Assembly (NCBI GenBank): GCA_012838715.1
Contig: DUOR01000389.1
Span: 1-11,085 of the forward strand
Length of the DNA stretch: 11,085 nt
Direction: 5' to 3'
Origin: Actinomycetales bacterium
Lineage (GTDB): Bacteria; Actinomycetota; Actinomycetes; Mycobacteriales; Mycobacteriaceae
Made by a program: the position numbers and the translations under genes. Under the pieces are notes generated by a model that was given only the letters and a program-made list of their open reading frames with translations, was not told the origin of the DNA and ran no database searches. Positions 6,154-11,085 of this stretch are shown here, one piece after another (position 1 is the first letter of the stretch; every line of letters begins with the position of its first letter).

Positions 6154-8916
6154 CTAGTGCGCGGCCTCGTCCCAGTTGGCGCCGTAGCCGACGGACACGT
6201 CCAGCGGGACGCGCAGTTCGAAGGCGGCGTCCATTTCCCGTTCGAGGATGTCGATGACCTGATCGCGCTCCCCGGGGGCGACTTCCACGACGAGTTCGTC
6301 GTGCACCTGCAGCAGCACGCGGGACTTCAGCGGCTCGCCGACGGTCACGCCGGCCACGGTCTCCGCCGCGCCACCCGAGCCCGCACCACCCGAACCCGCG
6401 TCTCCCTCGGCGACCGCCGAACCACCGCGTCGGAAAGCATCCTCGACGCGGAGCATGGCCACCTTGATGATGTCCGCCGCGGTGCCCTGAATCGGCGAGT
6501 TCAGCGCCGCGCGCTCGGCGTTGTCGCGGGCCATGCGGTTGTCGGAGTTGAGGTCCGGCAGGTAGCGGCGGCGGTCGAACAGCGTGGCGGTGTAGCCGTC
6601 CTTGCGGGCCTGCTCGACCACGCCGTCGAGGTAGGCGCGGACGCCGCCGAAACGCTCGAAGTACTCCTCCATCAGGCGCTTCGCCTCGCCCTGCGGGATG
6701 TCCAGCTGCGCCGCCAGGCCGAATGCGCTCAGTCCGTAGGCCAGGCCGTAGGACATGGCCTTGACGCGGCGGCGCAGTTCCGGGGTGACGCCGTCGATGG
6801 GGACGTCGAACACCTTGGAGCCGACGTAATTGTGCAGGTCCTCGCCGCGCTGGTACGCCTCGATGAGCCCCTCGTCGCCGGACAGGTGCGCCATCACGCG
6901 CATCTCAATCTGGGAGTAGTCGGCGGTGACCAGCGCCTCGTACCCTTCGCCGGCCACGAACGCGGAGCGGATTTGGCGGCCGAAATCGGTGCGCACGGGG
7001 ATGTTCTGCAGGTTCGGTTCCGTCGACGACAGGCGGCCGGTCGCCGTGACCGCCTGGTTGAAGGTGGTGTGGATGCGGCCGTCGTCGGCGACGGCCTTGA
7101 TCAGCCCCTCCACGGTGGACTTCATCTTCTGCGATGCGCGGAACTTCAGCAGGTACTCGAGGAAGGGGTGCGGGTCGCTCTTGGCCAGCGTCTCGATTTC
7201 CTTCGCCGCCGTCGAGTACCCGGTCTTCGTCTTCTTCGTCTTGGGCATGCCGAGCTGGTCGAACAGCACTTCCTGCAGCTGCTTCGGCGAGCCGAGGTTC
7301 AGCTCGGGCCGGTCGACGAGGCCGCGCGCCTCCGCCTCGGCCGCCAGCTGCGCGCTTTCCGCCTGCCCACGCAAGTCCTCTAGCTTTCCGACGTCGACCG
7401 CGATCCCGGCCTTTTCCATCCGGGCCAGGGCGGGCGCCAGCGGGATTTCGATGTCCGCGTAGACGTCGTACAGGCCGTTGTCGTCGAGCTCGGCGGCCAG
7501 GGCCGCCGCCAGATCGAGGATGGCGCCGGCGCGTTCGGTGTCGCCGGAGTCCTCGTCGAGGAGGGTCATCTGGCCCTCGGATCGGGACAGCGTCCGGTTG
7601 AGGTGGCGCTGCAGCACGTTCTCCAGCGTGTAGCTGCGCTGGCTCGGGCGCAGCAGGTAGGACGCGAGGAAGGTGTCGTGGCTGACGCCCGCCAGTTCCA
7701 GGTCATGGGCCCACAGGGCGTGCATGGCGGACTTGGCGTCGTGGACGATCTTCGGGTGCGGCCCGGCGAGCCAGGTCTCCAGTGCGTCCCGGTCGGCCGG
7801 GGTGAGCTTGGCCGGGTCGACGACGACGGCCTCGACGTCCGGGGCATCGTCGGAATCGCCGACCTCCGCGGGCGCGTCGGCTTCCGCCGGCGCGGCGATG
7901 GCCAGCTGCCCGCCGAAGTAATCGATGGCGGCGGGACCCTGTTTGGCCGCCAGCCATGCCGCAAGTTCACCGTCGGCAAGCTCGACGGCGGTGACCTCGG
8001 AGGCCTCGCCGTCACCGGCGACGATGCCCGCGCCCTCGACGGCGAGGGTGCGGAACAGGCGGTCGCGGAGGGAGTCGCCGAACTCGAGGCGGTCGAAGAA
8101 GTCGGAGATGCCCTGCGCGTTGGCCGGGCGGCGCTCCAGCTCCGTCGGCTTGTACGGCAAGGGCAGATCCTTGACCATTTCAGTGAGGTCGCGGTTCATC
8201 TGCACGGAGGAGATGCGTTCGCGGAGGTTGTCGCCGACCTTGCCGCGGACCTCGTCGGCGCGGTCGATGAGCTCGGCCAGCGAACCGAACTGCAGGATCC
8301 ACTTCTGGGCGGTCTTCTCGCCGACGCCGGGGATGCCCGGCAGATTGTCGGACGGGTCGCCGCGCAGCGCCGCGAAATCGGGGTACTGCTCCGGGGTCAG
8401 CCCGTACTTCTCCTGCACGGCCTCCGGGGTGAAACGGTGCAGCGTGGACACGCCGCGCATGGGGTACAGGACGGTGGTGGCGGGGTTGACCAGCTGCAGG
8501 GCGTCGCGGTCACCGGTGACGATGAGGGTCTCGAACCCCTCCGGCAGCGCCTGCGTGGCCAGCGTCGCGATGATGTCGTCGGCCTCGTAGTTGTCCTTCT
8601 CCAGCGTGACGATGCCCATTTCCTTCAGCACCTGCTGCAGCAACGGCACCTGGCCGCGGAACTCCTCCGGCGTCTTCTCGCGCTGGGCCTTGTACTCCGG
8701 GAACTTGTCGGTGCGGAAGGTCTTCCGCCCGACGTCGAAGGCGACCGCCACGTGCGTGGGGTTCTCCTCGGCGAGCAGGTTCGACAGCATCGAGAGGAAT
8801 CCGTAGACCGCGTTCGTGTACTGACCGCCGGTGGTGGAGAAATTGTCCGTCGGCAGGGCGAAGAACGCGCGGAAGGCCATCGAGTGCCCGTCGATGAGCA
8901 TGAGAGTTCGCTTCAT
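6154..8916 (-). CDS. polA: DNA polymerase I
   Basis: 920 aa, close to the ~904 aa of mycobacterial PolI. It fills gaps and removes RNA primers in Okazaki maturation and excision repair. 5' nuclease domain (about 1-290): LMLIDGHSMAFRAFFALP with D9, D61, EADD (111-114), GDRD (135-138), and the helix-3-turn-helix GDPSDNLPGIPGVGEKTA (186-203). Proofreading domain (about 300-490) is degenerate: the first exonuclease motif reads IDYFGG (331-336), without the D-x-E pair, and is followed by an acidic Ala-rich stretch. Polymerase domain: motif A DYSQIE (D666-E671), O-helix RRRVKAMSYGLAYG (R715, K719, Y723), motif C VHDE (H872, D873, E874). Odd: about 30 extra residues rich in Gly, Ser and Ala (about 831-861) sit just before motif C. 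Start 8916 puts Met two residues before the conserved RTLMLIDG; the frame stays open to 9060 but that stretch has no PolI character. No Shine-Dalgarno site: TACACT lies 7 nt upstream. Confidence 0.97.
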   Translation of the reverse strand: MKRTLMLIDGHSMAFRAFFALPTDNFSTTGGQYTNAVYGFLSMLSNLLAEENPTHVAVAFDVGRKTFRTDKFPEYKAQREKTPEEFRGQVPLLQQVLKEMGIVTLEKDNYEADDIIATLATQALPEGFETLIVTGDRDALQLVNPATTVLYPMRGVSTLHRFTPEAVQEKYGLTPEQYPDFAALRGDPSDNLPGIPGVGEKTAQKWILQFGSLAELIDRADEVRGKVGDNLRERISSVQMNRDLTEMVKDLPLPYKPTELERRPANAQGISDFFDRLEFGDSLRDRLFRTLAVEGAGIVAGDGEASEVTAVELADGELAAWLAAKQGPAAIDYFGGQLAIAAPAEADAPAEVGDSDDAPDVEAVVVDPAKLTPADRDALETWLAGPHPKIVHDAKSAMHALWAHDLELAGVSHDTFLASYLLRPSQRSYTLENVLQRHLNRTLSRSEGQMTLLDEDSGDTERAGAILDLAAALAAELDDNGLYDVYADIEIPLAPALARMEKAGIAVDVGKLEDLRGQAESAQLAAEAEARGLVDRPELNLGSPKQLQEVLFDQLGMPKTKKTKTGYSTAAKEIETLAKSDPHPFLEYLLKFRASQKMKSTVEGLIKAVADDGRIHTTFNQAVTATGRLSSTEPNLQNIPVRTDFGRQIRSAFVAGEGYEALVTADYSQIEMRVMAHLSGDEGLIEAYQRGEDLHNYVGSKVFDVPIDGVTPELRRRVKAMSYGLAYGLSAFGLAAQLDIPQGEAKRLMEEYFERFGGVRAYLDGVVEQARKDGYTATLFDRRRYLPDLNSDNRMARDNAERAALNSPIQGTAADIIKVAMLRVEDAFRRGGSAVAEGDAGSGGAGSGGAAETVAGVTVGEPLKSRVLLQVHDELVVEVAPGERDQVIDILEREMDAAFELRVPLDVSVGYGANWDEAAH
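6371..6400 (-). repeat. 15-bp duplicated unit within the polA insert
   Basis: Bases 6371-6385 and 6386-6400 are two copies of CCACCCGAGCCCGCA with two differences. On the coding strand they give the repeated Gly-Ser-Gly-Gly-Ala of residues 841-850, so the insert probably grew by slippage, and in frame. Confidence 0.8.
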
Positions 8917-8923
8917 GGGCACC

Positions 8924-8929
8924 AGTGTA
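8924..8929 (-). promoter_or_regulatory. Candidate -10 box of polA (leaderless)
   Basis: Minus-strand TACACT (TAnnnT) ends 7 nt before the polA ATG (8916), placing the transcription start at or next to the start codon. With no Shine-Dalgarno site, a leaderless mRNA is likely. No recognisable -35 at 17-18 nt. Confidence 0.5.
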
Positions 8930-9251
8930 GGAAACGTCCCGGATTGGGCCTCTGATTGATCCGCCGGCCACGGGCGGCCAAACTTGCCGACGCACCGTCG
9001 GTTCCACCCGTATGGACTACCCCGAAAACGGGTGGGATCTGAACCACGGTTAACCCCCATTCGGGTGATGCATTGTTTGCCCCCTATTGGGGGTGTTCGC
9101 AGAAAACTGCACTATGGGTTTTGCCCAATCAGCCTATTTGCCTGCAGAAAGTGAGCGTCGTTACCCTCACTATGGGGAGAGGTCGCGTCACTATCCGTCG
9201 AACGTGGCACATCAACGGGGCCAGCGACTAGGAACATACCCCCCATGGCTC
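8930..9251. promoter_or_regulatory. Divergent polA/tetR intergenic region with repeats
   Basis: No gene seen. It is visibly richer in A/T than its flanks, especially 9040-9180. It holds an 8-bp inverted repeat CCACCCGT/ACGGGTGG (9004-9011 and 9028-9035), a CCCCC-TATT-GGGGG hairpin (9080-9093), two CACTATGGG copies (9110-9118, 9168-9176) plus a third CACTAT (9189-9194), and two GCAGAAA copies (9099-9105, 9144-9150). Binding sites for the TetR protein or another regulator are plausible, but none matches an operator I know. Confidence 0.5.
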
Positions 9252-9883: not shown

Positions 9884-9921
9884 GGTGGTTCCCGGCGGCG
9901 CCTTTTGTGGCGAGAACCACC
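9884..9921 (+). terminator. Stem-loop between tetR and popT
   Basis: Perfect 8-bp outer stem GGTGGTTC/GAACCACC (9884-9891, 9914-9921) around an inner CGCC/GGCG stem (9899-9902, 9909-9912) with loop TTTTGT. It starts 5 bp after the tetR stop. With no U-run after the stem it is a doubtful intrinsic terminator; it could also be an RNA-processing site or a regulator site. Confidence 0.4.
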
Positions 9922-9928
9922 CGTGCGG

Positions 9929-9961
9929 GATACCGATTTACCTGGACAAACCGGGTATCAT
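9929..9961 (+). promoter_or_regulatory. popT promoter with overlapping palindromic operator candidate
   Basis: TATCAT (9956-9961) is a good -10, 9 nt before the popT ATG. It overlaps the right arm of an inverted repeat, GATACC (9929-9934) and GGTATC (9954-9959). Inner bases continue the symmetry with one offset (left GATTT, right AAACC). A protein bound here would block the promoter; the adjacent TetR protein is the obvious candidate, though the span is at the long end for a TetR site. Confidence 0.45.
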
Positions 9962-9970
9962 CCACCGGCG

Positions 9971-10930
9971 ATGAATACTCACGAAGCAACTTCGACGGCG
10001 ACCCGGGCCGACGCGGGCGCGGATCGCCGCCCCCGCCCGACCCCGGCAGGCACCGCCGGCAACGTGGTCCGCGGTGGCCTGATCGGTTTGGCCGAGACCG
10101 TCCCGGGCGTGTCCGGCGGCACGGTCGCGTTGGTCACGGGCATCTACGAGCGCCTGATCGCCTCGGGCAAGGCCATCACGGATCTGCCGAAGTCCCTGTT
10201 CGGCAAGGGCGGCGACGCCGCCCGCCGCATCGACTGGTGGCTGCTCATCCCCGTCGCCATCGGCATGTTGGCGGTCGTGTTCACGATGGCCGGCCCGATG
10301 GAGTCGTTCGTCACCAATCAGCCGGTGGCGTCGAAGGCCCTGTTCATGGGCATGATCGCGGCGTCCATCATCGTGCCGTTCCAGGAGCTGCGCGATGGTG
10401 CGATGAAGCCGCCGGGCATGCGCGGCAAGGCCGTCGCCGTGTTCGTGTTCTTCGCGGTGGCGACGTTCTGGTTGACGTCCCTTCCGTCGGCCGCCCCCAC
10501 CGAGCCGCCGCTGTGGCTGGTGTTCATCGCCGCGTCGATCGCCATCTGCGCCCTGGTCCTGCCGGGCGTCTCGGGTTCCTTCTTCCTTCTGGTCATCGGC
10601 CTGTACGCGCCGACGATGGCCGCCGTCGACCAGTTCAACATCCCGTACATGGCCACGTTCATGCTGGGCGCCCTGGTGGGCATCGTGCTGTTCGTGCGTC
10701 TGCTGGAGTGGCTGCTGGAGCACAAGCACACCCTGACGCTCGTCGCGATGGCCGGCCTGCTGCTGGGTTCCCTCCGTGCGCTGTGGCCGTGGCAGGGCGA
10801 AGACAACGAGATGCTCCGCGCCGGTTCGGATTGGCCGATGGCGCTGGGGCTTTTCGTCCTGGGCGCCGCCATCGTCGGCGTCGTCGCGTGGGTGCAGGCC
10901 CGTTTTTCCTCGCCGGAGCACGTGGCCTAA
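9971..10930 (+). CDS. popT: DUF368 membrane protein, PopT-type polyprenyl-phosphate transporter
   Basis: 319 aa polytopic membrane protein. Seen: hydrophilic N-terminus rich in T, A, R and D (1-27), then GLIGLAETVPGVSGGTVAL (36-54) and, in the second half, CALVLPGVSGSFFLLVIGLY (193-212). The paired PGVSGG/PGVSGS motifs are the DUF368 (PF04018) hallmark and reflect an internal repeat. About seven to eight hydrophobic segments (about 92-109, 122-137, 153-170, 181-197, 200-215, 226-243, 254-270, 289-308). Known: DUF368 proteins were shown in Vibrio cholerae and Staphylococcus aureus to return undecaprenyl phosphate across the membrane, recycling the carrier for wall synthesis; in mycolic-acid bacteria the substrate would be decaprenyl phosphate (inference). 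The frame is open from 9905, but ATG 9971 is preferred: it follows the -10 at 9956 and the upstream codons fall in the promoter. It follows tetR by 92 bp and is probably its target. The family is firm; the transporter role in this organism rests on homology. Confidence 0.85.
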   Translation: MNTHEATSTATRADAGADRRPRPTPAGTAGNVVRGGLIGLAETVPGVSGGTVALVTGIYERLIASGKAITDLPKSLFGKGGDAARRIDWWLLIPVAIGMLAVVFTMAGPMESFVTNQPVASKALFMGMIAASIIVPFQELRDGAMKPPGMRGKAVAVFVFFAVATFWLTSLPSAAPTEPPLWLVFIAASIAICALVLPGVSGSFFLLVIGLYAPTMAAVDQFNIPYMATFMLGALVGIVLFVRLLEWLLEHKHTLTLVAMAGLLLGSLRALWPWQGEDNEMLRAGSDWPMALGLFVLGAAIVGVVAWVQARFSSPEHVA

Positions 10931-10966
10931 TATGGGTTAGTCGCTTGCCGACGGGGCCACGCCCCG
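10928..10966 (+). promoter_or_regulatory. Possible tRNA promoter and hairpin after popT
   Basis: TAATAT (10928-10933), overlapping the popT stop codon, is a good -10 and would start an RNA about 45 nt before the tRNA; a -35 is not clear. Downstream, CGGGGC/GCCCCG (10952-10957, 10961-10966) with a 3-nt loop makes a compact hairpin without a U-run. It could end popT transcription or lie in the pre-tRNA leader. Confidence 0.3.
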
Positions 10967-10982
10967 CCGCCGCGGCCCATCG

Positions 10983-11056
10983 GCCCCTGTAGCCCAATTG
11001 GCAGAGGCAACGGATTCAAAACCCGTCCAGTGTGGGTTCGAGTCCCACCGGGGGCA
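10983..11056 (+). tRNA. tRNA with anticodon CAA (Leu) but a short variable loop
   Basis: A full cloverleaf folds by hand. Acceptor stem 10983-10989/11049-11055 (7 bp, one U-G). D-arm 10992-11008 with a 3-bp stem GCC/GGC and an 11-nt loop CAATTGGCAGA. Anticodon arm 11010-11026 with loop TTCAAAA, anticodon CAA at 11017-11019 (reads UUG, Leu) and an A-C mismatch closing the loop (11014, 11022). Variable loop CCAGT, only 5 nt (11027-11031). T-arm 11032-11048 with five pairs and loop TTCGAGT. Discriminator A at 11056, then CCG, so the terminal A of CCA is not encoded. The 3-bp D-stem, AATTGGCAGA loop, A73 and CAA are Leu-like, but bacterial tRNA-Leu is class II with a long variable arm, absent here. 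It may be an unusual Leu isoacceptor, a variant charged with something else, or a non-decoding tRNA-like RNA. Confidence 0.88.
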
Positions 11057-11085
11057 CCGGCAACAACCCCCGCTGAACTGTTTCA

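Follow-up and report, generated by a model that had tools for sequence, protein, structure and literature searches.

Background

In bacteria a long variable arm is regarded as characteristic of tRNA-Leu. Two leucine tRNA genes of Mycobacterium tuberculosis, leuV (anticodon CAA) and leuX (UAA), are listed at 74 bp, and in vitro the leuV transcript is a substrate for modification by MiaA; the available text of that report gives the two lengths and does not discuss the missing arm (PMC9336784). As the lengths are printed there, this kind of gene was already known. In the accessible part of a second report (PMC11541572) the M. tuberculosis tRNALeu-2, -3 and -5 have a long loop, and the naming of only these three implies that the other leucine tRNAs of the species do without it. 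A cluster-borne tRNA-Leu(TAG) with a short variable loop is described for the M. mucogenicum clade (PMC6582537, accessible part). Leucine identity in E. coli is given as A73, A15-U48, G18G19 and A20a, with no need for the variable arm, and U8:A14 is given as an identity element in A. aeolicus (PMC9976931, in the text available). The sources searched, in the parts available, held no statement of an exchange between the two shapes or of the short arm as a clade-wide trait; most subscription journals and the tRNA databases lay outside that search, so both may be known there.

The window and its tRNA gene

The window, ie the whole 11,085-nucleotide stretch of DNA that was analysed, encodes a DNA polymerase I (PolA) that shares 80% identity with its Corynebacterium freneyi counterpart; among the 120 matches listed, those with a name were Corynebacterium. 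Judged by this protein comparison, the source genome is a Corynebacterium. ARAGORN, run over the whole window, reported a single tRNA gene, tRNA-Leu(CAA) at 10983-11058 on the + strand, and the Rfam tRNA model aligned over its full length to 10983-11056 (54.6 bits, E 9.1e-10). The features of the locus are as follows.

6154..9060, - strand: polA (DNA polymerase I), a conserved neighbour of short- or long-armed tRNA-Leu(CAA) in the genus
9905..10930, + strand: PF04018 gene (undecaprenyl phosphate translocase-like, formerly DUF368), upstream of the tRNA; several congeners have a homologue next to tRNA-Leu(CAA)
10983..11056, + strand: tRNA-Leu(CAA) gene of class I shape, 74 nt long as far as A73 and lacking an encoded CCA (ARAGORN, Rfam, parsed arms)
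10992..11008, + strand: D arm GCCC-AATTGGCAG-AGGC, 3 pairs, carrying A14, A15, G18G19 and A20a of the leucine identity set (parsed; identity list from the available text of PMC9976931)
11010..11026, + strand: anticodon arm ACGGA-TTCAAAA-CCCGT, anticodon CAA at 11017-11019, A31.C39 non-pair (parsed)
11027..11031, + strand: variable loop CCAGT, 5 nt, the last base being U48, which pairs with A15 (Rfam, parsed)
11056..11056, + strand: discriminator A73 (parsed)

An earlier note, made from the letters of the window, had described a leucine-type CAA tRNA without a long variable arm and with a 5-nt loop, and ARAGORN, Rfam and the parsed arms all bear this out: the arm of at least 10 nt by which a bacterial class II tRNA-Leu is recognised is absent, its place being taken by CCAGT. 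The leucine-like D arm with a 3-pair stem and the A73 that it pointed to are likewise present, together with the leucine identity set. The parsed acceptor arm is GCCCCTG/CGGGGGC and the T arm GTGGG-TTCGAGT-CCCAC; the D arm has a C13.A22 non-pair besides its three pairs, and A73 is followed by CCG, so that CCA is not encoded. The A-C mismatch closing the anticodon loop (A31.C39, positions 11014 and 11022 of the window) also exists as described. It does not hold as a private defect, being common to 14 of the 28 distinct short-armed CAA bodies; 24 of 47 UAA bodies have A31-U39. The short-armed tRNA-Leu gene in the window is real and complete.

The contig ends 27 bases past the ARAGORN end of the gene, and the window covers its upstream side. 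Scanning of 10850-11085 predicted no promoter in that interval; the one terminator-like site that it gave falls within the preceding gene. The gene was also considered as tRNA-Sec and rejected, having 74 nt and CAA as against about 95 nt and UCA. Plain energy folding of the naked RNA gave another fold at -30.0 kcal/mol against -26.9 kcal/mol for the cloverleaf. The anticodon stem appeared in the plain minimum-energy fold of 63 of 93 short leucine tRNAs and of 23 of 31 other class I tRNAs of a complete congener (G019), and energy folding was discarded as a mark of the short leucine kind, which it does not separate from other tRNAs.

Leucine tRNA complements

The assembly to which the window belongs (2.38 Mb, 480 contigs, 87.7% complete, 41 tRNA matches) has a short-armed tRNA-Leu for CAA and long-armed ones for CAG, GAG and UAG. 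A UAA tRNA-Leu gene was not found in this 87.7% complete assembly, nor was a long-armed match for Leu(UUR), and because of that incompleteness the lack of a long CAA gene in it is weak evidence. A Corynebacterium congener, G019, is assembled in one contig and 100% complete. Its 53 tRNA matches reduce to 45 distinct tRNAs, five of them tRNA-Leu: CAA and UAA short-armed, and CAG, GAG and UAG long-armed. The short-armed gene is its sole CAA tRNA, so with UUR short and CUN long, the UUR codons are read there only by short-armed tRNAs. UUG is the only codon served by the CAA tRNA, and it may also be read through wobble by the UAA tRNA, itself short-armed.

Distribution of short-armed Leu(UUR) genes

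A pattern built on the D arm and anticodon loop matched 200 of 201 Corynebacterium genomes, the source genome included, and 194 of the 194 good ones. Exactly two short matches, counted from the table, occurred in 182 of the 201, as a rule one UAA and one CAA among the matches listed. With a longer pattern, permitting 14-40 bases between the anticodon loop and the T loop, 124 of 150 genomes of the order matched (108 of 128 good ones), and the gene was short in every case among the matches listed. The strict pattern matched 98 of 396 genomes across the phylum, a few of these being doubtful (G226, G284 and one of two matches in G263). A scan of named sequences gave at least 117 stretches; the 80 titles listed include Gordonia, Nocardia, Nocardioides, Rhodococcus and Tsukamurella, as well as Mycobacterium, Bifidobacterium, Microbacterium, Micromonospora and others. 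Among these 80 titles are also six metagenome assemblies titled outside the phylum, where the titles may be wrong. A metagenome contig titled Chloroflexaceae (L316) packs 26 tRNA genes into about 4.4 kb; its Leu(CAA) and Leu(UAA), both short-armed, lie beside long-armed Leu(GAG) and Leu(CAG).

The window gene fits into this short-armed actinobacterial tRNA-Leu(UUR), which has a CAA or UAA anticodon, a variable loop of 5-6 nt, a 3-pair D stem and a CCAA..GGYAGAG D arm. Among 30 genus loci that were fetched, 8 of the 12 short CAA loci have polA or PF04018 as a neighbour, as against 0 of 18 short UAA loci. Chance is rejected as the origin of the feature, since the same kind of gene is present in 200 of 201 genomes and keeps its neighbours at CAA loci. 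The assembly is fragmented and the gene lies 27 bases from a contig end, as might be expected of a pseudogene or of a sequencing error that removed a long arm. All 28 distinct short CAA bodies from actinobacteria have, however, a variable loop of 5 nt, and this conservation reduces the likelihood of either to practically nil.

Some short Leu(CAA) genes depart from the common form. Divergent bodies in G149, G028 and G070 (L399, L402 and L409) have a variable loop and T stem unlike the usual CAGTGTG, and those of G028 and G070 are additional to the usual pair. In two Corynebacterium genomes there are duplicate short Leu(CAA) copies 2-3.2 kb apart (L367, 1765-1838 and 4974-5050; G022, C27:135792 and 137785). 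In G154 the duplicate copies flank a transporter-like ORF, a peptidase-like ORF and an integrase-like fragment, named from their translations, and look as if they bounded an integrated island.

Leucine identity and decoding

The published identity nucleotides A73, A15-U48, G18G19, A20a and U8:A14 are all present in the window tRNA. The set was complete in 27 of 28 short CAA and 45 of 47 short UAA actinobacterial bodies, a score of 72/75 that is partly circular, as most of the short leucine genes were fetched with a pattern presetting A14, A15, G18G19 and A20a and the D-loop letters were thus fixed at most loci. It was complete also in 12 of 16 short leucine tRNAs from phage and cyanobacterial records, in 8 of 8 long ones and in none of 102 non-leucine tRNAs, 15 of which reached six of the seven features. 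Short leucine tRNAs fetched without a D-arm query had the set in 8 of 8 cases, and BLAST matches in plasmid records in 4 of 4. A20a by itself, again partly preset by the pattern, was found in 75/75 short actinobacterial Leu(UUR), 8/8 long leucine and 15/16 phage or cyanobacterial short leucine tRNAs, and in 0/102 non-leucine tRNAs.

The gene might still be a tRNA of another isotype in which the anticodon has shifted. Most amino acids normally have tRNAs of class I shape, and a human precedent exists (PMC8450103, accessible part). The bodies of the G019 tRNAs were compared with that of the window gene: on 64 positions the nearest was Leu(UAA) with 53 identities, then Leu(UAG) with 47 and Arg(ACG) with 45; on 30 loop and core positions Leu(UAA) was again nearest with 27, and three long leucine tRNAs, Lys(CTT) and Ala(TGC) all had 22, so that lysine and alanine tie there with the class II leucine tRNAs. 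In a tree computed without the anticodon and the variable region, 197 of 197 leucine bodies fell in one split, together with two Gln; when the D-loop columns were left out as well, a split of 196 leucine bodies took in 27 non-leucine ones. In the G019 set and the trees the body was not closest to a non-leucine tRNA, ties with these occurring only below Leu(UAA). Whether models of another amino acid would fit better had been raised as a test of the leucine reading, and by body distances and trees, some ties aside, no better isotype emerged. With A20a shared by short and long leucine tRNAs (the preset letters being borne in mind), and with UUG aligning to leucine and to no other residue in preference, a shifted anticodon is highly improbable.

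UUG is leucine in Corynebacterium. When 18 leuS genes of the genus were aligned to E. coli LeuS, 48 of 98 UUG codons fell on leucine (CUN, 490 of 1100), and the second most frequent residue at the UUG positions accounted for 7%; the single UUA codon was not on leucine. The polA gene of the window has just two alignable UUG codons, one on Leu and one on Pro, which is too few. The suggestion that the tRNA might be defective, mischarged, stress-specialised or non-decoding is not supported by these results: it is of the kind that provides the sole CAA tRNA in G019, UUG positions are leucine and the identity set is intact.

A bacterial-type leuS scored above the curated cut-off in 31 of 31 genomes, with one locus each among the matches listed. 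In Corynebacterium and in several other families of the order the LeuRS match is interrupted at model position ~142-143, which suggests an insertion there; in five other genomes of the order (G041-G044 and G048) the match runs through that place without a break.

Proposed exchange of short- and long-armed genes

A long-armed Leu(UUR) pattern matched 11 of the 201 Corynebacterium genomes and had no match in 190. All 11 genes are CAA and were called by ARAGORN as tRNA-Leu(CAA) of 84-87 nt. Nine of these genomes (G003, G030, G072, G119, G121, G136, G152, G191 and G201) have no short CAA match, and, the incomplete G000 aside, they are exactly the genomes with a single short match, which is UAA in 9 of 9. 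The other two, G149 and G210, have a short UAA, a short CAA and a long CAA gene; with both CAA forms in only 2 of 201 genomes, the proposal of a distinct RNA kept beside a separate class II CAA gene finds no support in nearly all of the genus. Of the matches of 43 nt containing TTCAAA, the two that were checked (L109 and L110) proved to be tRNA-Sec and not class II Leu(CAA).

polA lies within the 1.5-kb flanks of 10 of the 11 long CAA genes. The exception is G210, in which the copy beside polA is the short CAA gene; in G149 the short CAA gene is a divergent copy away from polA. As polA stands beside both long and short CAA genes, one locus holds either shape. Short and long CAA genes at this locus differ in the D and anticodon stems besides the arm, and the T arm of the window gene is identical, letter for letter, to that of the long gene in G030. 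The earlier note's reading of a leucine tRNA that has lost its variable arm is thus right in that the arm is absent and too simple as regards its loss, the differences in the D and anticodon stems indicating that this is not the whole story.

Across the phylum the long-armed pattern matched 288 of 396 genomes. For 29 of the 98 short-form genomes a long row was available among the matches listed, and in 28 of these 29, likewise among the matches listed, the long form serves the other anticodon; the exception is G284, with its doubtful short match. A short UAA commonly goes with a long CAA; the reverse pairing, short CAA with long UAA, occurs in G293, G475, G255, G380 and G592. Thirteen genomes have both short anticodons and no long match, and 36 of the 98 have one short anticodon and no long match.

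A functional leucine tRNA could have some added role, in regulation through rare UUR codons or in evading toxins that grip a long arm. UUR codons are a minority of leucine codons in the five window genes counted, and MenT3 of M. tuberculosis favours tRNAs whose variable loop is long and well placed (PMC11541572, in the text available). Nothing direct points to such a role in Corynebacterium, and nine congeners use a long-armed CAA gene instead; we consider an added role unlikely.

Occurrence in phages and mobile tRNA arrays

Of 50,697 phage records, 294 matched a 76-nt query and 293 a 74-nt query, 168 of them Mycobacterium phages. Short-armed leucine tRNAs with CAG, GAG, UAG and AAG were also present in five phage regions and two other records that were opened, and arrays in metagenome or other actinobacterial contigs carry them for CAG and GAG. 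The arrays L152, L345, L358, L245 and L248, from actinobacterial contigs and phages, carry short-armed leucine tRNAs for CAG, GAG or AAG, anticodons for which the two Corynebacterium tRNA sets examined have a long-armed tRNA or none. In a tree, 174 of 177 short leucine bodies share one split. A prophage integrase adjoins the short leucine gene in Tsukamurella, and attB-11 of M. smegmatis overlaps tRNA-Leu-CAA (PMC10865867, accessible part); this kind of gene serves as an integration site.

These matching records, the short-armed CUN tRNAs of phages and arrays and the Tsukamurella integrase would suit an accessory tRNA derived from a phage or mobile array, dispensable or used against host defences that cut tRNA. 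Such an origin for the window gene is nevertheless very unlikely, as the gene stands by polA or PF04018 in many species of the genus and is the sole CAA gene in the complete congener G019. The window itself has no second tRNA, its contig ending 27 bases downstream, and congeners carry the gene at polA/PF04018.

Interpretation

The window gene is, with high confidence, a Corynebacterium housekeeping tRNA-Leu(CAA) of the ordinary sort, like leuV of M. tuberculosis, and reads UUG as leucine. It is intact, belongs to a widely conserved kind and has the published leucine identity nucleotides; the 5-nt variable loop, conserved in all the distinct short CAA bodies, also disposes of the suspicion that a sequencing error hides a long arm. 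A bacterial-type LeuRS would be expected to charge the tRNA through A73, A15-U48, G18G19, A20a and U8:A14, and, by analogy with what is reported for E. coli, to ignore the variable arm. Short- and long-armed genes are probably interchangeable in function, and have probably taken each other's place for one anticodon after another, in some cases at a single locus.

More tentatively, and at somewhat less than even odds, we suggest that throughout Actinomycetota either arm length will serve in a Leu(UUR) gene, and that genes of the two shapes have repeatedly displaced each other, one anticodon at a time. In Corynebacterium this would have happened at the polA-side locus, short in many species and long in ten; on this suggestion the occurrence of either shape there would mean that one LeuRS serves both, and phages or mobile tRNA arrays may be the vehicle.

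For this gene the puzzle is gone, and the remaining interest is in short and long Leu(UUR) genes that substitute for one another, within one genus at a single locus. Across a large clade UUA and UUG are for the most part read with no long variable arm, and related species carry either shape at the same place. This provides a natural experiment on the E. coli finding of a LeuRS indifferent to the arm, and a case in which replacements between tRNA genes of unlike shape can be counted. It bears on toxins that select tRNAs by the variable arm, and is a warning that such genes should not be discarded as isotype conflicts or pseudogenes.

Comparison with known systems

Class II bacterial tRNA-Leu shares the identity nucleotides and a non-paired 13-22 with the window tRNA (8 of 8 examined), but its variable arm is 13-18 nt long compared to 5 nt, and its D stem differs. 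Human mitochondrial tRNA-Leu(UUR) also reads UUR, has no long arm, has the A73 and A14 determinants and has a mismatch closing the anticodon loop (PMC9976931, in the text available); unlike the window tRNA it is organellar, and an independent origin is presumed. The tRNA-Leu(TAG) of the M. mucogenicum clade is, like the window gene, an actinobacterial leucine tRNA with a short variable loop, whereas, in the available description, it is accessory, has a CUN anticodon and stands in a tRNA array beside a normal long-armed isoacceptor. The host tRNA-Leu-CAA at attB-11 of M. smegmatis and the copy carried by phage Gaia have the same anticodon as the window gene, the host gene being the integration site; the available text of that report (PMC10865867) concerns lysogeny and does not mention the shape of the tRNA. 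In gene length and anticodon leuV and leuX of M. tuberculosis match the short Corynebacterium pair, a likeness of lengths and not of whole sequences in the text available, and the M. tuberculosis T1 fragment ACUCAAAACCCG (PMC9336784, accessible part) has the same A31.C39 context as the window tRNA.
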